DNA of 48,177 nt from Sulfuritalea sp. (lineage in GTDB: Bacteria > Pseudomonadota > Gammaproteobacteria > Burkholderiales > Rhodocyclaceae), in contig JAUYSD010000056.1 in NCBI GenBank assembly GCA_030696505.1, positions 1-48,177 on the forward strand, given 5' to 3'. Both the position numbers and the translations under genes were made by a program. Every line of letters starts with the position of its first letter. The first letter of the stretch is position 1. The notes below the pieces were generated by a model. That model did no database searches, was not told the origin of the DNA, and worked only from the letters and a program-made list of their open reading frames with translations. This document shows, piece after piece, positions 3,632 to 46,818 of the stretch.

Positions 3632-4734
3632 GCGGCGCGGGACGCCTGTGACAAATGCGCGGCGAAGCGCTGCAGGTGAAAATCGGTGTCGCCGAATGTC
3701 ATTTCGATGGCGGTCAGGCGCTTGAACCAGTGGCTCAGGATCAGCTCGTCGGTCATGCCCATCCCGCCGTGCAGTTGCACCGCGTTTTGTGCGATGAAGC
3801 GGCAGGCCTGGCCTATGGTCACCTTGGCGGCCGAGAGCGTGCGCTGGCGTGCCGCCTGATTCTTCTCGGTGCAATGCATGGCGGCAAGATAGCTCATCGA
3901 GCGCGCCTGTTCCAGATGCAGCAGCATGTCCGCCATGCGGTGCTGCAGCGCCTGGAAGCGGCCGATGGGCTGGCCGAACTGCTGACGCGTCTTGAGGTAG
4001 TCGGTGGTGGCGGCGATGGTCGCGTCCATGATGCCGACCGCCTCGGCGCACAGCGCGGCGAGGCCGATGTCGAGCGCCGCATCGATCGCTTCCAGCGTCG
4101 CATCGTGCGTGCCGGCGTCCAGCCGCATCGCCGGCGCATTGCTCAGCACCAGATCCGCGGCGCGCTGGCCGTCGAGCGTCTGGTAGTCGCGCAGCTGCAC
4201 GCCCTCGGCGCCCGAGATCACGGCGAAAAGCCCCATCTCGCCGCGCGCGGTGCGTGCCGAGACCAGCAGCAGGTCGGCGCAGCCGCCGTGGGCGACCACG
4301 GCCTTGCGCCCCGACAGATTGCCGCCGATTTCCGTGACCAGCTCGCGGCGCGCATCGGCATGGGCGAGCACGACAATGGATTCGCCGGTGGCGATGTTTG
4401 GCAGCCACTCTTCCTGAAAGTTGGCGCTGGCGACACGGCGAATCAGCGCCGGTGCGATCACCGCGCCGGCCAGATAGGGCTCCAGCAGCAGGCCGGCGCC
4501 GAAAGCGCCCATCACCAGCCCGGTTTCCTGCGGTCCATAGCCGAGCCCGCCGTAATCCTCGTCGATGTTGAGCGCCAGCACGCCGAGGTCGGCCAGTCCC
4601 TGCCAGACCTCGCGGCTCCAGCCGGGTTCGGCATCGCGGATGGCGCGGCGCTTCTCGAAGCCGTAGTCCCTGGCGATGAAGCGCTGCACCGTATCGGCCA
4701 GCGCGCGCTGGTCTTCGTTGAAGTCGAAGTTCAT
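3628..4734 (-). CDS. acyl-CoA dehydrogenase, short subunit of a heteromeric pair
   Basis: A 368-aa acyl-CoA dehydrogenase starting MNFDFNEDQRALADTVQRF. The C-terminal flavin-domain motifs TRQQFGQPIGRFQALQHRMADM and QAVQLHGGMGMTDE-like sequence (AVQLHGGMGMTDELILSHWF) are present, while the central domain is divergent. It follows the 388-aa dehydrogenase by only 10 bp. Such adjacent long/short pairs are known from actinobacterial and proteobacterial steroid side-chain degradation (ChsE1/ChsE2-type), where the two proteins form an alpha2beta2 enzyme. The pairing here is inferred from order and sequence type. Its stop overlaps the ligase start by ATGA. Confidence 0.88.
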   Translation of the reverse strand: MNFDFNEDQRALADTVQRFIARDYGFEKRRAIRDAEPGWSREVWQGLADLGVLALNIDEDYGGLGYGPQETGLVMGAFGAGLLLEPYLAGAVIAPALIRRVASANFQEEWLPNIATGESIVVLAHADARRELVTEIGGNLSGRKAVVAHGGCADLLLVSARTARGEMGLFAVISGAEGVQLRDYQTLDGQRAADLVLSNAPAMRLDAGTHDATLEAIDAALDIGLAALCAEAVGIMDATIAATTDYLKTRQQFGQPIGRFQALQHRMADMLLHLEQARSMSYLAAMHCTEKNQAARQRTLSAAKVTIGQACRFIAQNAVQLHGGMGMTDELILSHWFKRLTAIEMTFGDTDFHLQRFAAHLSQASRAA

Positions 4735-10550: not shown

Positions 10551-10601
10551 GCAAGAGTTGGCGCTGACGGTACGGCGCTCCGCCCCCGAATCGCCGTACC
10601 G
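10551..10601. repeat. dispersed repeat copy with strong hairpin
   Basis: Just after the isochorismatase stop, GCAAGAGTTGGCGCTGACGG leads into CGGTACGGCG, which pairs perfectly with CGCCGTACCG across 14 nt. Related sequence occurs at 19236-19261 and 27619-27644 on the opposite strand. The hairpin could act at the transcript end, but there is no T tract. The rest of 10602-10830 holds nothing I can name. Confidence 0.5.
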
Positions 10602-19085: not shown

Positions 19086-20642
19086 TCAGAGGTCGGCGGG
19101 TGCTACGAAGGCGTCGCGCAACTCGCGCTTGAGTATCTTGCCGATGGCGCTGCGCGGCAGGCTGTCGACGATGACCACGGCGGCCAGGCGCTGGGTCTTG
19201 CCCAGGCGCTGGTTGGCCCAATCCTTGATCGGGATCGCCGTGTCGCCAGCGCCAACTCTTGTGACGACGAAGGCCACCGGCGTTTCGCCCCAGCGCTGCG
19301 AGGGGACGCCAACCACGGCCGCCTCGGCCACCGCTGGATGCCGGATCAGTACCGCTTCGAGGTCGCTCGGATAGACATTGAAACCGCCCGAGATGACCAT
19401 GTCCTTCCTGCGGTCCATCAGCGTCAGGAAGCCGTCGGCGTCGAAGCGGCCGACATCCCCGGTGCGGATGAAGCGCTTGCCGTCGGGCGCATACCACTCG
19501 GCTTCGCGCGTCTTGTCGGGCTGGCGGTGGTAGCCGCTCATCATGGCCGGCGAATGGCCGACCACCTCGCCGATCTCGCCCTGCGCGACCTCGCGGCCCG
19601 CTTCGTCGATCAGCCGGATGTCGTGGCCCTCGGCCGGCGCGCCGACCGTGGCCAGCTTGTCCGGGTGCTCGTGGGCGGCGAGGATGCAGGTGCCGCCGCC
19701 TTCGGTCATGCCGTAGTACTCGACCAGGCCGCCGGGCCAGCGCCTGAGGATGTCGGCCTTCAGCGCCGCGGCGAAGGGCGCGCTGGTGCATAGCTTCATG
19801 CGGAAACTGGAAAGCTCGTGGCGGTCGAAATCCGGGTGGTCCATCAGGCGCTGGTATTGCACCGGCACCAGCATGGTGTGGGTGGCGCGGTGCTGCTCCG
19901 CCAGCGCCAGATATTTTGCTGCATCGAACTTCGCCATCAGCACCACGCTGCCGCCCAGCGTCACGGTGGGAAAAAAGCTGACCAGCGTGGTGTTGGAGTA
20001 GAGCGGGGTGGCGATCACGGTCACCGCCTCGGGGCCGTAGCCCTGCAGCCGTGCGCGCTGGACATGGGACCAGCGCATGCCGTGGGGCTGGACGATGCCT
20101 TTCGGCGTGCCGGTGGTGCCCGATGAATAGATGATGTTGAAGGGCCATTCGGGGCGGATGTTCACCGGCTTCGGCACGCTGCCGGCGGGAGCCAGCCATT
20201 GCGAGAAGGGCTGGCCCGCTGCGCTGTCGTCGAGCGTGACGAAGCGCGCGGCGATGTCGCCGCGCACCGGCGAGAGTTCCTGCGCCGTCGCGGCGTCGAC
20301 GAACATCAGCTTGGCTTCGGCGTTGGCCGCCATGTCGGCCAGGCTTTGCGCGGTCGAGGAGGGCGCCAGCGGCGCCACGGCAACGCCTGCGCGCAGGGCG
20401 CCGAGGAACACCGCGGCATATTCGAGCGAAGTACCGGCGCAGATCGCCACGGCCTCGGTGGGGCGGATGCCCTCGCGCTGCAGCGTGGCGGCGACGCGGT
20501 CCATCATCGCGTCGAGCGTGGCGAAGGAGACCTGGCGCTCGTCCTGGATCAGCGCCGGATGGCCGGGGCGCGCCAGTGCCTGCAGGCGGATCAGTTCGGC
20601 GTAGGTACCGAAGGGCTGTTCGATCAGTGCGGCGGGACTCAT
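19086..20642 (-). CDS. acyl-CoA synthetase (AMP-dependent ligase)
   Basis: A 518-aa ANL-superfamily ligase. P-loop motif IIYSSGTTGTPKGIV near residue 165, EYYGMTEGGG near 295, and the hinge region RRKDMVISGGFNVYPSDLE near 415. The C-terminal lysine motif is PRSAIGKILKRELRD. Start set at the ATG at 20642, which overlaps the MaoC stop as ATGA. The 734-aa track ORF is a read-through of a different frame. The segment around residue 460 (TRVGAGDTAI) corresponds to DNA similar to the dispersed 27-bp repeat at 10551. It would activate an acid from the same pathway. Confidence 0.9.
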   Translation of the reverse strand: MSPAALIEQPFGTYAELIRLQALARPGHPALIQDERQVSFATLDAMMDRVAATLQREGIRPTEAVAICAGTSLEYAAVFLGALRAGVAVAPLAPSSTAQSLADMAANAEAKLMFVDAATAQELSPVRGDIAARFVTLDDSAAGQPFSQWLAPAGSVPKPVNIRPEWPFNIIYSSGTTGTPKGIVQPHGMRWSHVQRARLQGYGPEAVTVIATPLYSNTTLVSFFPTVTLGGSVVLMAKFDAAKYLALAEQHRATHTMLVPVQYQRLMDHPDFDRHELSSFRMKLCTSAPFAAALKADILRRWPGGLVEYYGMTEGGGTCILAAHEHPDKLATVGAPAEGHDIRLIDEAGREVAQGEIGEVVGHSPAMMSGYHRQPDKTREAEWYAPDGKRFIRTGDVGRFDADGFLTLMDRRKDMVISGGFNVYPSDLEAVLIRHPAVAEAAVVGVPSQRWGETPVAFVVTRVGAGDTAIPIKDWANQRLGKTQRLAAVVIVDSLPRSAIGKILKRELRDAFVAPADL

Positions 20643-21142: not shown

Positions 21143-21862
21143 TCAGACGGCACGCAGCGCGCCGTTCTGCAGCAGCGGCACCACGTCGAAACAGCTTTCC
21201 TGTGCGGCGAAGGCGACTTCGGCATCGAGCCGGCGCGCCAGCATCATGCGGCCGACGCGGGCGCGGCGCAGCGCGTCGAGGCCGTCGCAATGATCGTGCA
21301 GCAGCTCGGCGGCCAGCGCGGCATCCGAATAGTCGGCGCTGGTGGCATGGCGACGGAACAGCGAAACCAGGTAGCCGGCGCCGTAGAAATCTTCGAGGTT
21401 GAAGTTGTCGGCCGAGCCGGAACAGACGATCAGGATGGTGGAGTCCGGATGCTGTGCGACGATGTGCTCGACCACGGCGCGGCCGTTGAGCAGTGCCGCG
21501 GCATAGACGTGGGCGGCGCCCTGCGACTTGGCCAGCGCCACGGTGCCGTTGGTGGTGCAGTAGATCAGCAGGCGGCCACTGACGCCTTCGGCCAGCAGCG
21601 CCTTCGGCGTCGGGTGCACGAAGCCGGGCAGCGTGTCGGCATTGAGTTCGCCGGAGAGGACGTAGGAACCGGCGGGAAAGTCCTTTGCCACTTCCTGTGC
21701 CGCGCGGCCGTCGAGCGTGGGGATGACTTCCGTCGCGCCATGGGCCAGCGCCGTGACGATGGACGAGGTGGCGAACAGGATGTCGAGCACCACGACGACC
21801 TTGCCTTCGAGGCGCTGGGCGTCGAGTTCTTCCTTTTTCAGGAGTACATGGATTTTCTGCAT
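21143..21862 (-). CDS. ComB-family (2-phosphosulfolactate phosphatase-like) protein
   Basis: A 239-aa protein resembling ComB. VVVVLDILFATSSIVTAL at about residues 21-38 matches the family's N-terminal Mg-binding region. YVLSGELNADTLPGF and LIYCTTNGTVAL are the next conserved blocks, followed by VCSGSADNFNLEDFYGAG. Known ComB acts in coenzyme M biosynthesis. Here no ComA, ComC or ComDE gene is nearby. The gene sits tightly between a thioesterase (7 bp) and MaoC, so its substrate may be a different phosphorylated acid, or the protein is a moonlighting member. Family call good, function open. Confidence 0.75.
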   Translation of the reverse strand: MQKIHVLLKKEELDAQRLEGKVVVVLDILFATSSIVTALAHGATEVIPTLDGRAAQEVAKDFPAGSYVLSGELNADTLPGFVHPTPKALLAEGVSGRLLIYCTTNGTVALAKSQGAAHVYAAALLNGRAVVEHIVAQHPDSTILIVCSGSADNFNLEDFYGAGYLVSLFRRHATSADYSDAALAAELLHDHCDGLDALRRARVGRMMLARRLDAEVAFAAQESCFDVVPLLQNGALRAV

Positions 21863-22435: not shown

Positions 22436-23214
22436 GTCTTGTGTCCGTGGATTTTTGTGGGGTCGGGTGGGCGTTTTTCGAGGAAGGCGGCGAAGATTTC
22501 CTTGGCCGCCGGGGCTGCGACGAGGTCGGAGAAAAACACCACCTCCTCGTCCATGGCCTCGCGCGCACTGCGCTCGGGCGGACGCTTCATCAGCGCCTTG
22601 GTCACGGCCAGGGATTGTGCCGGCAGGGCGGCGAGTTTGCGTGCCGCAGCCATCGCGGTGTCCATCAAGGCGGAGGCGGGCACGACGCGATTGACGAAGC
22701 CCGCGGAGCAGGCCATCGTCGCATCGAAAGGCTCGCCCAGCAGCAGCAGTTCGGCCGCGCGCTGGTGGCCGGCGACGCGCGGCAGCAGCAGGCTGGAGCC
22801 GGCTTCGGGACACAGCGCGAGATTGACGAAGGGCAACTGGAACTTCGCGTTGTCGGCGGCATAGACCAGATCGCAATGCAGCAGCAGCGTGGTGCCGATG
22901 CCCACCGCATTGCCGGCGACGGCGGCGACCAGTGGTTTTTCGAAGGCCGACAGCAGGTGCAGGAAGGGGATCGCCGCGCTCGGATCATTGGCCTTGCGCT
23001 GCAGGAAGTCGCCGAGGTCGTTGCCGGCGGTGAACAGATCGTCCTGGCCGCGGATCAGTACCGCCCTGACGTGGCTTTGCTCGCGGGCATGGCCGAGCGC
23101 CGCGCTCATGGCGCGGTACATGTCGCCGGTGATGGCGTTCTTCTTGTCGCGGCGGCTGATCTCGATGCTGACGATGCCGTCGCTGTCGCTAACGAGGATG
23201 TTGGGGTGGGTCAT
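22432..23214 (-). CDS. enoyl-CoA hydratase/isomerase, Delta3,Delta2-isomerase-like
   Basis: A 260-aa crotonase. The CoA oxyanion-hole segments are FTAGNDLGDF (about residue 63) and GNAVGIGTTLLLHCDLVYA (about 100). FQLPFVNLALCPEAGSSLLLP carries a Glu in the position used as catalytic base by ECI2/Pec1p-type Delta3,Delta2-enoyl-CoA isomerases, while the second hydratase Glu is not evident. Isomerase is therefore favoured over hydratase. It follows the long acyl-CoA dehydrogenase by 16 bp and leads into the mini-ORF by a 4-bp overlap. Confidence 0.82.
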   Translation of the reverse strand: MTHPNILVSDSDGIVSIEISRRDKKNAITGDMYRAMSAALGHAREQSHVRAVLIRGQDDLFTAGNDLGDFLQRKANDPSAAIPFLHLLSAFEKPLVAAVAGNAVGIGTTLLLHCDLVYAADNAKFQLPFVNLALCPEAGSSLLLPRVAGHQRAAELLLLGEPFDATMACSAGFVNRVVPASALMDTAMAAARKLAALPAQSLAVTKALMKRPPERSAREAMDEEVVFFSDLVAAPAAKEIFAAFLEKRPPDPTKIHGHKT

Positions 23215-23230
23215 GAATTCGAAAACCGGT

Positions 23231-25060
23231 TCAGAACGATTCGGGTGGCATGGTCAGGGTGGTGTCGTCGAGGCTGCGCAGCAGTTCATGCCACTGGCGG
23301 GTCTTGGGCAGTTCCCAGCGGTAGAACCAGCGGCAGGCCGCCAGTTTGCCACGATAGAAGTCGACATCGGCGGCAATTCCCTGGTCCAGGCCGCGCTGCG
23401 CCGCCAGTGCCTGACGCAGCCAGATCCAGGCGATCACGGTATGGCCGAAGGCTTCGAGGAAGAGCACGGCATTGGCCAGCGCCAGCGTCGGGTTGCTCGC
23501 CAGCACGGGGGCCAGCGCCTGCAGTGTGGCGGCGACATCGCCCTGCGCCGTTTCCAGTTCGCTGGCGTAGGCCGCGAGCGCGTCGTCCGATTTCGCTTCG
23601 GCACAAGTCTTGCGCAGTTCGGCGGCAAACAGCTTCATCGCCGCGCCGCCGTTCATCACCGCCTTGCGCCCGAGCAGGTCCAGCGCCTGGATGCCGTGGG
23701 TGCCTTCGTGGATCGGATTCAGCCGGTTGTCGCGGTAGAACTGCTCGACCGGATATTCGCGCGTGTAGCCGTAGCCGCCGTGGATCTGGATCGCCAGGCT
23801 GTTGGCTTCGAGGCACCACTGCGAGGGCCAGGACTTGGCGATCGGCGTCAGCAGGTCGAGCAGCAACGACGCCTCAGCCGCCGTCTCGGACTCTGTCTGC
23901 CCGGAATTCCGCTTCGCGGGCGGGCAAACGCCAACTCTCTGTTCATCGACCAGCCGCGCGCAATACAGGCACAGCGCGTAGCCGCCCTCGACGTAGGCCT
24001 TCTGCGCCAGCAGCATGCGCCGCACGTCGGCGTGCTCGATGATTTTCACCTGCGGCTCGGTGGCGCTTTTGTTGGTCGGCGCGCGGCCCTGCGGCCGTTC
24101 GCGGGCGTAGTCCAGCGAGGCCAGGTAGCCGCGGTAGCCGAGCATCACGGCGCCCATGCCGACGCCGATGCGCGCCTCGTTCATCATGTGGAACATGTAG
24201 GACAGGCCCTTGTGCTCCTCGCCCACCAGTTCGCCGATGCATTGTCCCTGTTCGCCGAAGGCCAGCATGGTCGAAGTGGTGCCGCGGTAGCCCATCTTGT
24301 GGATCAGGCCGGTCAGCGTCACGTCGTTCTTCTGGCCCAGGCTGCCGTCGTCGTTCACGCGGAACTTGGGCACGATGAACAGCGAGATGCCCTTGACGCC
24401 CGGCGGCCCGCCGGGAATCTTGGCCAGCACCAGATGCACGATGTTTTCCGAGAGTTCGTGGTCGCCGGCGGAAATGAAGATTTTGTTGCCGCGCAAGGAA
24501 TACGTGCCGTCGGCATTCGGCGTGGCGCTGGTGGTGATGTCGGACAGGCTGGAACCGGCCTGCGGCTCGGTCAGCGCCATGGTGCCGAAAAAGCGGCCGG
24601 CCAGCAGCGGGCCGAGATACTTCGCCTTCTGCGCTTCGCTGCCGAAGCGATGAATGACGTTGGCGTTGCCTATGGTGAGGAAGGGATAGGCCGCAGTGCC
24701 GACGTTGGCGCTCTTGAACAGCGAGAATGCCGTCTGGGTCATGACCACCGGCAACTGCATGCCGCCGCGCTCGAAGTCGTGTGCGGCGGCGATGAAGCCG
24801 GCCGTGCTGAAGGCCTGCAGCGCTTCCCTGACCTCGGGGATCATGGTCACGCGCTGGCCGTCGAAAGTCGGTTCGTTGGCGTCGGCCTTGTGGTTGTGCG
24901 GCGCGAATTTCTCGGTCGCCATGGCTTCCGCTGTGTCGAGCACGGCGAGGAAGGTTTCCTTGCTGTGCTCTGCGTAGCGCGGCCGGGCGGTCAGGGCCTC
25001 GGTGTCGAGGACTTCGAAGAGCTGGAAGTCGAGATCCCTGCGGTTGATGATGCCGCTCAT
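23231..25060 (-). CDS. long acyl-CoA dehydrogenase (DmdC/FadE5-like) with repeat-derived insert
   Basis: A 609-aa acyl-CoA dehydrogenase of the long class with an extra N-terminal helix region (DFQLFEVLDTEAL) and a C-terminal helical domain. Family signatures: GTMALTEPQAGSSLSDI in the middle domain, MMNEARIGVGMGAVMLGYRGY, and the flavin/base region IQIHGGYGYTREYPVEQFYRDNRLNPIHEGTHGIQ. The base is expected in NPIHEGT. Around residues 373-392 the sequence VGVCPPAKRNSGQTESE corresponds to a palindromic repeat in DNA, apparently inserted in frame in a linker. It overlaps the upstream gene's stop by ATGA. Confidence 0.9.
   Translation of the reverse strand: MSGIINRRDLDFQLFEVLDTEALTARPRYAEHSKETFLAVLDTAEAMATEKFAPHNHKADANEPTFDGQRVTMIPEVREALQAFSTAGFIAAAHDFERGGMQLPVVMTQTAFSLFKSANVGTAAYPFLTIGNANVIHRFGSEAQKAKYLGPLLAGRFFGTMALTEPQAGSSLSDITTSATPNADGTYSLRGNKIFISAGDHELSENIVHLVLAKIPGGPPGVKGISLFIVPKFRVNDDGSLGQKNDVTLTGLIHKMGYRGTTSTMLAFGEQGQCIGELVGEEHKGLSYMFHMMNEARIGVGMGAVMLGYRGYLASLDYARERPQGRAPTNKSATEPQVKIIEHADVRRMLLAQKAYVEGGYALCLYCARLVDEQRVGVCPPAKRNSGQTESETAAEASLLLDLLTPIAKSWPSQWCLEANSLAIQIHGGYGYTREYPVEQFYRDNRLNPIHEGTHGIQALDLLGRKAVMNGGAAMKLFAAELRKTCAEAKSDDALAAYASELETAQGDVAATLQALAPVLASNPTLALANAVLFLEAFGHTVIAWIWLRQALAAQRGLDQGIAADVDFYRGKLAACRWFYRWELPKTRQWHELLRSLDDTTLTMPPESF
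23899..23936. repeat. palindromic repeat inside the long acyl-CoA dehydrogenase gene
   Basis: TGCCCGGAATTCCGCTTCGC continues into GGGCGGGCA, giving TGCCCG...CGGGCA arms. The core GGxATTCCGCTTCGCGGGC is also at 27977-27996 beyond tRNA-His. The adjoining CGCCAACTCT also resembles the 10551/19236/27619 repeat. All codons stay open. Confidence 0.6.
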
Positions 25061-26181
25061 GCCGCGAGCAGCGTATCGCTGAAGCGGCCCAAGTGGTAGT
25101 CCGCGTCGCCGAAAGTCAGGCCGATCATGGTCAGGCGCTTGAAGTAATGGCCGACGTTGAGTTCGTCCACGACGCCCATGCCGCCGTGCAACTGCACCGC
25201 CTGTTGGCCGACCAGGCGGGCCTGGGTGCCGATGTAGGCGCGCGCGGCGGCGACGGCGCGGCTGCGCTCGGCGGAGTCAGGCGAGTCGACGCGCACCGCG
25301 GCCAGCGTGGCCATGGAACGCGCCTGTTCGGTGGCGATCACCATGTCGGCCATGCGGTGCTGCAGGGCCTGGAACTTGCCGATCGGCACGCCGAACTGCT
25401 TGCGCGTCTTCAGGTATTCGAGCGTGACTTCGTTGAGCGCCGACATGATGCCCACGGCTTCGGCGCAGAGCGCCGCGCTGGCGTAGTCGATGGCGCGCTC
25501 GATGACCGGCAGCGCAGCGCCAGCCGGCCCGATCAGCGCCTCGGCGCCGACCTGGACGCCGGCCAGTTTGACGTCGGCGGCGCGGGCGCCGTCCTGCGTC
25601 GGATAGCTGCGCAAGCTGACGCCGGGCGCCCTGGCGTCGACCAGGAACAGCGACATGCCTTTGCCGTCCATGGCTGAAACGATCAGTTTGTCGGCGGCAG
25701 GTGCGCCGAGCACCACGGCCTTGGCGCCGTCGAGCTGCCAGCCCTCGCCCTGCGCAGTGGCGGTGGTGGCGACCTGATCGAGCGCGTAGCGCGCGCCGGG
25801 TTCGTGATGCGCCAGCGCCAGCATCAGGTCTCCGCCGGCGGTCATGGGCAGCAATGCTTCCTTCTGCGCGGCGCTGCCGGCGTCGCGGATCAGCCCGCCG
25901 CAGAGCACGACGGTGGAGACATAGGGCTCCAGCGCCAGACCGCGGCCGAGCATTTCCATGACCAGCATGCTGTCGACGGCATTGCCATTCAGCCCGCCGA
26001 AATCCTCGGGAAAGGGCAGGGCGAGGATGCCGAAATCGGCGAAGGTCTTCCAGGCCGCGCGATCGAAGCCGTCGGCGGACTTCGCCAGCGCGCGGCGGTG
26101 CTCGAAGGGATAGTCCTTCGCGATGAAGCGGCGCAGGGTGTCCTGCAGGGCGAGTTGTTCTTCGGTGTAGTTGAAGTCCAT
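25057..26181 (-). CDS. acyl-CoA dehydrogenase, short subunit of second heteromeric pair
   Basis: A 374-aa acyl-CoA dehydrogenase beginning MDFNYTEEQLALQDTLRRF. It shares TRKQFGVPIGKFQALQHRMADM and QAVQLHGGMGVVDELNVGHYF with the protein at 3628, to which it is clearly homologous. The gene is only 2 bp after its long partner, and its stop overlaps the start of the long dehydrogenase at 25060. Start chosen at the ATG at 26181. The 737-aa track ORF includes a false upstream frame. An alpha2beta2 complex with the 26184-27404 product is inferred. Confidence 0.9.
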   Translation of the reverse strand: MDFNYTEEQLALQDTLRRFIAKDYPFEHRRALAKSADGFDRAAWKTFADFGILALPFPEDFGGLNGNAVDSMLVMEMLGRGLALEPYVSTVVLCGGLIRDAGSAAQKEALLPMTAGGDLMLALAHHEPGARYALDQVATTATAQGEGWQLDGAKAVVLGAPAADKLIVSAMDGKGMSLFLVDARAPGVSLRSYPTQDGARAADVKLAGVQVGAEALIGPAGAALPVIERAIDYASAALCAEAVGIMSALNEVTLEYLKTRKQFGVPIGKFQALQHRMADMVIATEQARSMATLAAVRVDSPDSAERSRAVAAARAYIGTQARLVGQQAVQLHGGMGVVDELNVGHYFKRLTMIGLTFGDADYHLGRFSDTLLAA

Positions 26182-27504: not shown

Positions 27505-27618
27505 GCTCGGGATGGCGGATTCAGCCCGCAAAAAACCGCCGTCGTCCTGCGGCAGCCGCCATGCGCGGATCGGCCCGGCCTGGTCCTGCGGGATCGATCG
27601 TGCCGCGTGCCGCAATGT

Positions 27619-27644
27619 CGCCGTACTGTCAGCGCCAACTTTCG
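27619..27644. repeat. dispersed repeat copy (CGCCGTAC...GCGCCAACT)
   Basis: CGCCGTACTGTCAGCGCCAA is the reverse complement of the sequence at 10551-10577 with one or two changes. A partial relative lies at 19236-19261 within the ligase gene. Confidence 0.45.
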
Positions 27645-27735: not shown

Positions 27736-27812
27736 GGTGGCTGTAGCTCAGTTGGTAGAGTCCTGGATTGTGATTCCAGTTGTCGTGGGTTCGAGTCCCA
27801 TCAGCCACCCCA
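27736..27812 (+). tRNA. tRNA-His (anticodon GTG)
   Basis: Complete 77-nt cloverleaf. Acceptor GTGGCTG pairs with CAGCCAC. The extra G at -1 opposite the discriminator C is the histidine identity element. D-loop AGCTCAGTTGGTAGAG, anticodon loop TTGTGAT giving GTG, T-loop GGGTTCGAGTCCC, CCA encoded. It differs from E. coli tRNA-His at only a few positions. Confidence 0.97.
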
Positions 27813-27824
27813 CCCGAATCGAGA

Positions 27825-27849
27825 ACGGAGCCTGCGGGCTCCGTTTTTT
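27825..27849 (+). terminator. rho-independent terminator of tRNA-His
   Basis: ACGGAGCC-tgcg-GGCTCCGT followed by a run of T, 12 bp after the tRNA. Confidence 0.9.
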
Positions 27850-27850
27850 A

Positions 27851-28016
27851 TGTCCGCGGCGCCCTGCCGCGGACGGTATCCCCTGGTGGGATTTGTCTGC
27901 GGCGCCCAGCCGCAGACGGTATCCCCCGGTGGGATATGTCTGCGGCGCACAGCCGCAGACGGTGCTTTGCCCGCCTGGGATTCCGCTTCGCGGGCAGGCG
28001 TCCCCCGGTGGGATTT
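27851..28016. repeat. 43-bp hairpin tandem repeat array
   Basis: Two full 43-bp units (27851 and 27894) and a third hairpin (27937) of the form GTCTGCGGC-loop-GCCGCAGAC followed by GGTATCCCCCGGTGGGAT. A different palindrome (27966-27999) is followed by a fourth copy of the linker CCCCCGGTGGGATTT. Unit 1 has GTCCGCGGC/GCCGCGGAC, a compensated stem change. All six frames are open here, producing false ORFs. 28017-28269 shows no further feature. Confidence 0.85.
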
Positions 28017-36443: not shown

Positions 36444-37964
36444 ATGACCAGCGTCGACGAAAAGGACATTCTGCAATGCCTGGGCATCGTCGGCAGCCTG
36501 GCCGCGGGCAATGCCGGCTTTGCCTCGGAAAACCCGGCAACCGGCAGGGTGATCGCCCGGGTTCGCCGTGCCGCCAGCGCCAACTATGAGGCGACCGTGA
36601 CGGCGGCCGCGGCTGCTTTCGTGAAATGGCGCGAGGTACCGGCGCCGCAACGCGGCGCGCTGGTGCGCGCCCTGGGCGAGGAACTGCGGCGGCACAAGGA
36701 TCTGCTCGGCAGCCTGATCTCGCTCGAAACCGGGAAGATCAAGGCCGAAGGCGACGGCGAGGTGCAGGAAATGATCGACATTGCCGATTTCGCCGTCGGC
36801 CTTTCGCGCCAGTTGTATGGTCGCAGCATGCATTCGGAGCGCCGGCAGCACCGGATGTTCGAGCAGTGGCTCCCGCTGGGTCCGGTCGGCGTGATCACCG
36901 CGTTCAATTTTCCCGCCGCCGTCTGGGCGTGGAACGCGCTGATCGCCGCGGTCTGCGGCGACACGGTGGTGTGGAAGCCGAGTCCGAAGGCGCCATTGAC
37001 GGCGCTGGCGATTCATCGTCTGGCATGCGAAGTGGCGCGGCAGCATGATGCCGCGGATGTCTTCGGCCTGCTGCTGTCCGACCGGCCGCAGCTCGGTGAG
37101 CGGATGGCGGCCGACCCGCGCCTGCCCTTGCTCTCCTTCACCGGGTCGTCCGCCGTCGGCCGTCGCGTGGCGCAGACCGTGGCGGCGCGTTTCGGCCGCA
37201 GCCTGCTCGAATGCTCGGGCAACAACGCGGTGATCGTCGATGAAAGCGCCGATCTCGATCTGGCGCTGCGTGCCATTCTGTTCGGTGCGGTGGGCACCGC
37301 CGGCCAGCGCTGCACCTCGACGCGCCGCCTGATCGTGCACGAGTCGCGCCATGCCGAAATCGTGCGCCGCCTGCTGGACGCCTACAGCGAGGTCTGCGTC
37401 GGCGATCCGCTGGCTGCCAGCACTCTGATGGGACCGCTGATAGACGAAGCCGCACGAAGCGAATTTGTCGCCGCGGTGGCCGCCGCCGAAGCCTGCGGCG
37501 GCACCGTGCTGTGTGGCGGCTCGGTTCTGGCGCGGCCCGGCTATTTCGTGCGGCCGACGCTGATCGAAGCCGAGAACGAGTGGCCGGTGGTGCAACGCGA
37601 AACCTTCGGCCCCATCCTTTACGTCATGCGCTACCGGGACTTCGAGCAGGCGCTGGCCATGCAGAATGCCGTGCCGCAAGGCTTGTCCTCGGCCTTGTTC
37701 ACGCTCGATCTGCGCCATGCGGAACAATTCCTCGCCGCATCCGGCAGCGATTGCGGCATCGCCAACATCAATCTCGGTACGTCGGGCGCCGAGATCGGCG
37801 GCGCCTTCGGCGGCGAAAAGGAAACCGGTGGCGGCCGCGAGGCAGGCTCGGACGCCTGGAAGGCTTACATGCGTCGACAGACCAATACGATTAATTGGGG
37901 TAGCGATCTGCCGCTTGCTCAGGGAATTGAATTTCTCCCCGGCGGAGTACAACGGAGCCGATAG
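36444..37964 (+). CDS. ALDH7-like (aminoadipate semialdehyde) dehydrogenase
   Basis: A 506-aa aldehyde dehydrogenase. LETGKIKAEGDGEVQEMID, FNFPAAVWAWN, catalytic Glu in LLECSGNNAVIV, catalytic Cys in TAGQRCTSTRRL, and the C-terminal GTSGAEIGGAFGGEKETGGGREAGSDAWK identify the ALDH7/antiquitin group. The group oxidises alpha-aminoadipate semialdehyde, and some members act on related semialdehydes. Encoded 9 bp after the arginase-OAT fusion, so it may oxidise the semialdehyde made by that enzyme, or extend the cluster to lysine catabolism. PutA already supplies P5C dehydrogenase, which favours a distinct substrate. Confidence 0.88.
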   Translation: MTSVDEKDILQCLGIVGSLAAGNAGFASENPATGRVIARVRRAASANYEATVTAAAAAFVKWREVPAPQRGALVRALGEELRRHKDLLGSLISLETGKIKAEGDGEVQEMIDIADFAVGLSRQLYGRSMHSERRQHRMFEQWLPLGPVGVITAFNFPAAVWAWNALIAAVCGDTVVWKPSPKAPLTALAIHRLACEVARQHDAADVFGLLLSDRPQLGERMAADPRLPLLSFTGSSAVGRRVAQTVAARFGRSLLECSGNNAVIVDESADLDLALRAILFGAVGTAGQRCTSTRRLIVHESRHAEIVRRLLDAYSEVCVGDPLAASTLMGPLIDEAARSEFVAAVAAAEACGGTVLCGGSVLARPGYFVRPTLIEAENEWPVVQRETFGPILYVMRYRDFEQALAMQNAVPQGLSSALFTLDLRHAEQFLAASGSDCGIANINLGTSGAEIGGAFGGEKETGGGREAGSDAWKAYMRRQTNTINWGSDLPLAQGIEFLPGGVQRSR

Positions 37965-44601: not shown

Positions 44602-46818
44602 ATGGTCTCCGTAGTGCATTCACTGCAGCCGTCGAGCGGCGAAGCCGAAACGCTGTCCCGTCTCTGTGTCGGCCTTCCCGCCGCGGCCGCGGTGCGCGCC
44701 GCCGAGGCGCTGGCGCTGGCGCGCGACGCTTATGGCGACAAGGAGCTGGGGACCGGCGAGGCCATCCTGCAGCACGCCTTGGGCATGGCCCTGATCGTGG
44801 CCTCGCTCGATCTCGATGCCGATGCGCGCATCGCCGCCCTGTTGTTCGCCGCCAACGATCATGTGACGGATTGCGACGAGCGCCTGAAAGTTGGCTTTGG
44901 CGACACGGTGGCCGGCCTGGTGGCGGGGCTGCATCGGCTGGGCAGCCTGCGTCCGCTGACGCGTGCAGCGGCCGGCGGCGGCCCGGCAGGCGAGGGCGCG
45001 GCCGAGCCGCGGGTGGACGTCAAGGCCCAGGCCGAGATCCTGCGCAAGATGCTGCTGGCCATGGTCGATGACATTCGCGTGGTCATGCTGCGGCTGGCGA
45101 GCCGGGTGCAGACGCTGCGCTTCCTCAACGCGCGGCCCGGCCCGCTGCGCGACGAAATGGCCAGGGAAAGCCAGCTGATCTACGCGCCGCTGGCCAACCG
45201 GCTCGGCATCTGGCATGTCAAGTGGGAACTCGAAGACCTGGCCTTTCGCTATCTGGAGCCCGAGACCTACAAGCGTATCGCCCGAATGCTCGATGAAAAG
45301 CGCACCGAGCGCGAAGGCTTCATCGACCAGGCCGTGGCGCGCCTGCAGGCGGAGCTGGCGGCTTCCGGCGTGCGCGCCGAGATCTACGGTCGGCCCAAGC
45401 ACATCTACAGCATCTGGAACAAGATGCGCGGCAAGGACATCGACTTCTCCGAAGTCTATGACGTGCGCGCGGTGCGCATCATCGTCGATGAGGTCAAGGA
45501 CTGCTACACCGCGCTGGGCATCGTGCATCATCTGTGGCAGCCGATTCACGGCGAGTTCGACGACTACATTTCGCATCCCAAGGGCAATTTCTATCGCTCG
45601 CTGCACACGGCGGTGGAGGTCGAGGACGGCCGTTCGCTGGAAGTGCAGATCCGCACCCGCGAGATGCACGAGCATGCCGAGCTGGGCGTCGCCGCCCACT
45701 GGCGCTACAAGGAATCCGGCAAGTCGGTGAAGGCCGGCGGCGCCTACGAGGACAAGATTTCCTGGCTGCGGCAGTTGCTGTCCTGGCGCGACGAAATCGC
45801 CGATTCGGCGGAGTGGGTGCAGCAGTTCAAGCGCGCGGCGCTGGACGACACGATCTATGTGCTGACACCCCAGGACAAGGTCATCGACCTGCCGCGCGGC
45901 GCCACGGCGCTGGATTTTGCCTATCGGCTGCATACCGATCTCGGCCATCGCTGCCGCGGCGCGAAGATCGACGGCCACATGGTGCCGCTCAACACCGCGC
46001 TGGCCAACGGCCAGCGCGTGGAAATCGTCACGGTCAAGAGCGGCGGGCCGTCACGCGACTGGCTCAATCCGGCGCAGGCTTACCTGGCCACGTCGCGCGC
46101 GCGGTCCAAGGTCAAGCAGTGGTTTGCGGCGCAGGACGAAGCCGAACTGCTGGCGCAGGGCCGCAGCCTGGTGACGCGGGAACTGCAGCGCGAGGGACAG
46201 ACCCAGTCCAATCTCGACGAACTGGCGGTCAAGCTCGGACTGAAAAGCGCCGAGGCACTGTTCCTTGCCGCGGCGCGCGGCGAGATCGGCATGCGGGCGA
46301 TCGATACGGCCTTGCGCGGCGGCGCCGAGCCCTTGCCGCCCGAGCCGGAAATCCAGACCAAAAAGAGCCGCGCCGGCGACAGCCGGATCCTGGTGGTCGG
46401 CGTGGACAAGCTGCTGACCCAGGTCGGCACCTGCTGCAAGCCGATGCCGCCGGATGCGATCGTCGGCTTCGTTACGCGCGGCAAGGGCATCTCGATCCAC
46501 CGTGTCGAATGCATCAACTTCCGCAACATGGCGGCACGCAATCCGGAGCGCGTCATCGGCGCGGAGTGGGGCGAGCAGTCCGGCGCGGTCTATCCGGTCG
46601 ATCTGGTGGTGGATGCGGGGGACAGGCAAGGACTGCTGCGCGACATTTCCGACGTGCTGTCGCGCGAGAAAATCAATGTGACGGCGGTCAGGACGCAATC
46701 CCGGGGAGGTATTGCCCATATGAGCTTTGTGGTTGAATTATCAGAGAAAGGCATTCTCCAGAGAGTGTTATCCTTGCTGCACGAGGTGCCAGGTGTCATT
46801 CGCGCCGAACGACGCTGA
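44602..46818 (+). CDS. relA: GTP pyrophosphokinase RelA
   Basis: A 738-aa RelA/SpoT-family enzyme making (p)ppGpp. The HD hydrolase region is degenerate (AALLFAANDHVTD replaces the HD pair), so it should be a synthetase only. The synthetase domain has YGRPKHIYSIWNKMRGKD and the EFDD signature of monofunctional RelA in GEFDDYISHPKGNFYRSLHT, then VQIRTREMHEHAELGVAAHW. TGS (YVLTPQDKVIDLPRGATALDFAY), zinc-finger-like CCKPMPPDAIVGFVT and C-terminal ACT domains follow. GATAAT 7 bp before the ATG hints at a short leader, but no -35 is convincing. Confidence 0.95.
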   Translation: MVSVVHSLQPSSGEAETLSRLCVGLPAAAAVRAAEALALARDAYGDKELGTGEAILQHALGMALIVASLDLDADARIAALLFAANDHVTDCDERLKVGFGDTVAGLVAGLHRLGSLRPLTRAAAGGGPAGEGAAEPRVDVKAQAEILRKMLLAMVDDIRVVMLRLASRVQTLRFLNARPGPLRDEMARESQLIYAPLANRLGIWHVKWELEDLAFRYLEPETYKRIARMLDEKRTEREGFIDQAVARLQAELAASGVRAEIYGRPKHIYSIWNKMRGKDIDFSEVYDVRAVRIIVDEVKDCYTALGIVHHLWQPIHGEFDDYISHPKGNFYRSLHTAVEVEDGRSLEVQIRTREMHEHAELGVAAHWRYKESGKSVKAGGAYEDKISWLRQLLSWRDEIADSAEWVQQFKRAALDDTIYVLTPQDKVIDLPRGATALDFAYRLHTDLGHRCRGAKIDGHMVPLNTALANGQRVEIVTVKSGGPSRDWLNPAQAYLATSRARSKVKQWFAAQDEAELLAQGRSLVTRELQREGQTQSNLDELAVKLGLKSAEALFLAAARGEIGMRAIDTALRGGAEPLPPEPEIQTKKSRAGDSRILVVGVDKLLTQVGTCCKPMPPDAIVGFVTRGKGISIHRVECINFRNMAARNPERVIGAEWGEQSGAVYPVDLVVDAGDRQGLLRDISDVLSREKINVTAVRTQSRGGIAHMSFVVELSEKGILQRVLSLLHEVPGVIRAERR

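Follow-up and report, generated by a model that had tools for sequence, protein, structure and literature searches.

A 36-bp hairpin interrupts a genus-wide 23-bp motif, in frame, in a Sulfuritalea acyl-CoA dehydrogenase gene

Introduction

An acyl-CoA dehydrogenase gene of Sulfuritalea encodes part of its protein on a palindrome that recurs between genes of the same contig, which raises the question of what this palindrome is and how it came to lie in frame inside a gene. The gene lies in a stretch of 48,177 nucleotides (the window), which belongs to a draft genome of 4.4 Mb (G000). Our preferred answer, to which we assign a probability of about 0.77, is that two repeats are nested here: a motif found throughout the genus, and a mobile, REP-like hairpin of 36 bp (HP) that inserts at one point of this motif in either orientation.

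Results and discussion

The insert in the dehydrogenase

The features of the locus, with the evidence for each, are:

23231..25060, minus strand: acyl-CoA dehydrogenase gene, FadE-type, with an extra C-terminal helical region, 609 aa (PDB relatives 8r1e, 6ijc and 6kpt; orthologues)
23924..23936, minus strand: left arm of the host motif, AGTTGGCGTTTGC, consensus AGTYGGCGCTGGC (motif copies lined up)
23888..23923, minus strand: HP cassette, 36 bp, orientation A, codons 380-391, PPAKRNSGQTES (12 codons missing in G027; genome-wide family; stem covariation)
23878..23887, minus strand: right part of the host motif, GAGACGGCGG, consensus GNNACGGCGA (motif copies lined up)
27964..27999, plus strand: second HP copy, solo, intergenic and outside the motif (core match; motif test)

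A reading of the sequence alone had paired the insert with the intergenic palindrome, and the core ATTCCGCTTCGCGGGC is indeed exact at both sites (23906-23921 and 27980-27995). In an alignment of some 100 orthologues and related proteins, the insert-free dehydrogenase of most genus members measures 596-602 aa over the matched span. The G027 protein has 597 aa, 12 codons fewer than the 609 aa of the window, and its downstream TAAEASLL is identical; comparison with this orthologue bounds the insert at exactly 36 bp. The sequence-only reading had placed it at 23895-23940 (residues 373-392); an insert is present, but these limits are slightly too wide and shifted relative to 23888-23923 and codons 380-391. 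The alignment was also checked for repeat-free orthologues that match the window protein in residues and length at this position, and none was found. Conservation in that part of the protein is lowest in the linker. In the predicted structure (mean pLDDT 88) the insert forms a loop, with pLDDT below 50 at residues 381-384, flanked by helices 344-376 and 390-426; the solved relatives 8r1e, 6ijc and 6kpt have a short loop at this position. Insertion into a tolerant charged linker, as had been suggested, is thus upheld by the orthologues, but the site is not an arbitrary one: the insert occupies a fixed point within a 23-bp motif that already encodes the linker. This motif, which forms both flanks of the insert, is a copy of a second and much commoner repeat that had gone unnoticed. 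HP is probably of no benefit to the dehydrogenase. A 736-aa open frame (22889-25099, plus strand) runs antisense across the entire gene and is probably a by-product of high GC.

The hairpin family

The core was searched for genome-wide, and G000 holds 31 copies of it, 20 exact and 11 with one mismatch, against 0 for the reversed control. A search of 150 related genomes found the exact core in 26 of the 31 genus members; outside the genus it turned up in a second genus of the family (G114) and in one further instance. At least 10 of the 31 copies in G000 are intragenic, in either orientation, in the dehydrogenase and at least nine other genes; in nine HP-bearing open reading frames, Pfam domains lie around or next to the insert.

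Across 27 distinct copies the stem is 97.8% paired. Double changes are seen at six of its ten pairs, of which five belong to the outer stem (six pairs) and one to the inner; the search pattern constrained the inner stem in part and left the outer stem free. There are 32 double-changed cells compared with 7.8 in shuffles (0 of 500 shuffles as high), and no shuffle (of 500) and no slid version scores as high in covariation. The folding energy of HP is ordinary for its composition (z -0.84), and single-strand folding energy is likewise ordinary for the motif. Most copies read ...CTYTGC[stem]...[stem]AAC/AAG, with CGTC following the stem in a minority only. As read off the sequence, no stop codon occurs in any of the six frames of the consensus.

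HP also occurs solo and in tandem without motif arms, including in the other genus (G114). Two loci (L083 and L197) carry tandem units with a period of about 36 bp, among them a ATTCCCCTTCGGGGGC variant, which is a compensating change in the inner stem. In the window the solo copy adjoins three copies, at 43-bp spacing (27849-27963), of another palindromic repeat (GTCTGCGGCGCCCAGCCGCAGACGGTATCCCCCGGTGGGATA-like). The sole credible match to a known RNA family in the window is a tRNA at 27737-27809.

The host motif

When copies are lined up, the host motif is 23-26 bp long, AGTYGGCGCTGRC-GNN-ACGGCGA, with sharp bounds, conserved arms and a variable centre. The word AGTTGGCGCTG occurs 455 times in G000. 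The pattern AGTYGGCGCTGRCGAYACGGCGA, allowing up to two mismatches, finds 451 copies there and 0 in the control; it is present in 31 of 31 genus genomes at 12-493 copies each, about equally on the two strands, with none in the control. Four genomes without an exact HP core carry it in abundance (G012 197, G014 393, G017 448, G029 323). A crude gene finder placed 43 of 57 copies inside genes, with certain reading frames strongly preferred; this figure of 75% is approximate, as the finder assigned the dehydrogenase to the wrong strand. Copies in the window outside the dehydrogenase are:

4419..4441, plus strand: motif without HP, intragenic; G023 has HP here (+36 bp)
10556..10578, plus strand: motif without HP, intergenic
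19235..19257, minus strand: motif without HP, called intragenic; T dialect in G000, G001 and G027, C in most relatives
21331..21353, plus strand: degenerate copy; motif missing in four relatives with length unchanged
27618..27640, minus strand: motif without HP, intergenic
36563..36585, minus strand: motif without HP, intragenic
44889..44911, plus strand: divergent copy, intragenic, also in several relatives

The motif has dialects. A C-to-T change is common to G000, G001 and G027, where it marks about 90% of copies (T 251, 218 and 260 versus C 35, 25 and 28, respectively), whereas each of the other 28 genus genomes has at most three T-dialect copies. Orthologous motif sites repeat this contrast, with the exception of the dehydrogenase motif, which keeps C in G001 and G027. 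Among 300 genomes of the order, the motif is also found in two sister genera, one of them with a different ending, and is near absent in the remainder. Three sister-genus genomes (G048, G238 and G115) hold 82-181 copies; in G048 and G238 these mostly end in ACGGCAC or similar rather than ACGGCGA, which constitutes another dialect. One genus member that is 99% complete, G016, has just 12 copies, against 61-493 in the others, and possesses ComEC.

In most genus members the motif encodes the dehydrogenase linker (R/K)VGAG(D/E)TA, RVGAGDTA in the window. This linker has the same length in motif-free Burkholderiaceae, and at other motif sites genomes without the motif are often equal in length, so the motif seems, from these comparisons, to arise by overwriting rather than by insertion. 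The arms are more conserved than their flanks at two sites and less conserved at two site sets that contain motif-free genomes. We considered whether the arms form a conserved hairpin of their own, but neither the dialect change nor the ACGGCAC ending of the sister genus is accompanied by a compensating change; a double-strand recognition site is therefore the interpretation we prefer.

One insertion point, occupied and empty

HP sits in the motif at AGTYGGCGCTGRC^GNNACGGCGA, its 36 bp lying between AGTYGGCGCTGGC and GNNACGGCGA. Of the 31 copies in G000, 23 are at this fixed point, 13 in orientation A and 10 in orientation B between identically oriented arms; random positions gave 59 in 200,000 (0.03%). 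The remaining 8 copies, and 28 of 53 sampled from relatives, lie outside the motif, which is hence preferred by HP and not required.

Orthologous sites were fetched from four relatives. Occupied and empty alleles differ by exactly 36 bp at CopA, a UvrD-type helicase, MurD, a glycosyltransferase and window site 4419, the last being empty here and occupied in G023. CopA carries HP in G000, G001 and G002 and is empty in G022 and G027. The helicase has HP in orientation B in G000 and in orientation A in G027, with empty sites in G002 and G022. MurD is occupied in G000 and G001 and empty in G022; G002 is also empty, with a further deletion. For both the glycosyltransferase and DnaX, HP is present in G000 and the HP-free G027 gene is exactly 36 bp shorter. 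HP-free relatives exist as well for a carboxyltransferase and for one more locus, some with small extra changes in length.

The dehydrogenase linker is itself a repeated site of insertion. The HP copy of G000 has orientation A and those of G022, G010 and G008 have orientation B; in G003 HP lies beside the motif, not within it, and the G007 linker (L040) holds an insert that is not HP. In a tree of the surrounding 5 kb, weakly supported at some nodes including that joining G022 and G027, the HP-bearing G022, G010, G008 and G000 are scattered among HP-free genomes. The linker has thus been struck in several separate lineages, either as a recurrent target or through repeated gain and exact loss.

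Origin of the nested arrangement

These observations suggest the following picture. The motif is spread through the genus, reaching at most about 490 copies in a genome and lying mainly inside genes; one of these copies encodes the RVGAGDTA linker. HP would insert between AGTYGGCGCTGGC and GNNACGGCGA in either orientation, adding 12 residues in the case of the dehydrogenase. Such insertions are presumably tolerated because 36 bp is a multiple of three (12 codons), because the consensus has no stops in six frames and because the motif tends to lie in variable linkers, here a flexible loop between two helices. We infer that HP moves as a REP-like miniature hairpin element for which the motif is the preferred target. 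A Y1 transposase (RAYT) flanked by HP was sought as the mobility enzyme. No HP core was found in the fetched flanks of 14 Y1 loci from 10 genomes, although motifs do occur near such genes; one locus examined closely (L179) shows a tandem duplication and other end sequences.

The simplest objection, that the insert is ordinary variation in linker length or a chance 16-bp match, draws on the poor conservation of the linker and on the window itself, where a relaxed core search (up to 3 mismatches) found 2 matches with 1.99 expected, which is chance level. The 20 exact copies in the genome against 0 in the control, the exact 36-bp differences between orthologues and the stem covariation rule it out, and we give it virtually no credence. 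It is also improbable, in our judgement, that motif and HP form one 59-bp element whose 23-bp copies are internal deletions lacking the hairpin, with no separate target. The two do occur together in 23 of 31 cases and the motif arms could form a weak, imperfect stem, but empty motifs are more than ten times commoner than HP copies, and the four genomes with hundreds of motifs lack an exact HP core. Nor would one element account for HP alone or in tandem without arms, in G114 too, for its two orientations between same-oriented arms, or for gene lengths that usually do not change with the presence of the motif.

Two further explanations are unlikely, though less so, and to a similar degree. Replication can remove or invert a hairpin; each site might have received HP in a single early insertion that was inherited, often lost by exact excision and sometimes inverted in place. 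The CopA insert common to G000, G001 and G002 fits such a history, and repeated exact excision yields the same patterns as repeated gain, which counts against the insertion model. The scatter of G022, G010, G008 and G000 among HP-free genomes would, however, demand many exact losses, and G003 and G007 have differing inserts at the same linker. Alternatively, species might exchange HP alleles on longer tracts through transformation or recombination; the motif would then be an uptake-like signal, and its match with HP would partly reflect which DNA is taken up. The high copy number of the motif, its presence on both strands and mostly in genes, and its clade-wide one-base dialect would agree with this, as would ComEC in 30 of the 31 genomes; yet ComEC is widespread in other bacteria, our controls included, and a single exact HP point used in both orientations is left unexplained. 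ComEC was rejected as a discriminating marker of competence, being present in 30 of 31 genomes including the motif-poor G016. Beyond the insertion of HP into a motif, which we favour, a more specific picture is tentative, with the balance somewhat against it: the motif might be a dialect-bearing recognition sequence of Sulfuritalea and its sister genera (an uptake signal or a genome-wide protein-binding site), and HP a miniature mobile hairpin specialised on this very sequence, which it would enter in frame and in either orientation as a safe harbour inside genes.

Comparison with known systems

HP resembles REP and BIME sequences in being a palindrome of 20-40 bp with a compensated stem, in tandem and solo, with intragenic copies that encode extra residues (PMC3733652). 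REPs lying in frame have been described for many genes; in recB, two Xanthomonas species have different REPs at approximately one site (Di Nocera et al. 2013, PMC3733652). A few REP families are nested in other palindromes, and GTAG-23 of T. roseum has hundreds of free targets; CGTC REPs are reported without a transposase (PMC3733652). HP differs in that most copies lack a GTAG or CGTC tag, in that no Y1 transposase adjoins any copy examined, unlike GTAG REPs, and in that its target is a mostly intragenic motif. With the tag mostly missing, HP is a variant of REP-like palindromes outside the GTAG/CGTC super-families. Rickettsia palindromic elements, to which the sequence-only reading had likened the insert, similarly lie in frame at tolerated positions of unrelated genes; the likeness is by insertion behaviour alone, and HP departs from them in its 36-bp length, preferred target motif, two orientations and unrelated host lineage. 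The in-frame behaviour is confirmed by the orthologues, the nine further intragenic copies and the stem covariation; identity with a Rickettsia-type element or a GTAG/CGTC REP is not established, as the tag is absent in most copies and no adjoining transposase was found.

In its distribution the motif recalls the DNA uptake sequences of Neisseriaceae and Pasteurellaceae (Frye et al. 2013, PMC3630211): it has hundreds of copies, lies on either strand and often in genes, shows one-base dialects that mark clades, and is present without a change in length. Those are short contiguous words, whereas the motif spans 23 bp, has a variable centre and is interrupted by a hairpin. Imperfect arms around a variable central part are also reminiscent of integron attC sites, a resemblance only: by eye there are no attC boxes, there are no cassettes, and the sites lie within conserved genes.

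REPs in frame within genes, and REPs nested in further palindromes, are known already; the literature searched contained no case of a hairpin directed at a motif that is high in copy number, lies mostly in genes and bears dialects. No account of either repeat in Sulfuritalea or Rhodocyclales was found in this literature, which covered few subscription journals. The motif, with its clade-wide one-base dialect and no length change on arrival, may be a further, new example of genome-wide signals akin to DNA uptake sequences, in a genus that has a cultured and harmless member. Empty, occupied and inverted 36-bp alleles form a natural series in important genes (MurD, DnaX, the UvrD-type helicase), and the entry of REP-like palindromes into coding sequence thereby becomes directly testable.

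Other additions at motif sites

The G007 insert, AGTTCCC..GGGACGCAG(A/C)GCGCTGGC, lies within the motif both at the dehydrogenase linker and at site 19235, and is possibly a second hairpin family with the same target. Orthologues of site 19235-19257 have an extra 12 bp in several relatives and 33 bp in one, beside or within the motif. Similar 12-bp additions are seen at site 21331 in G005 and G011.
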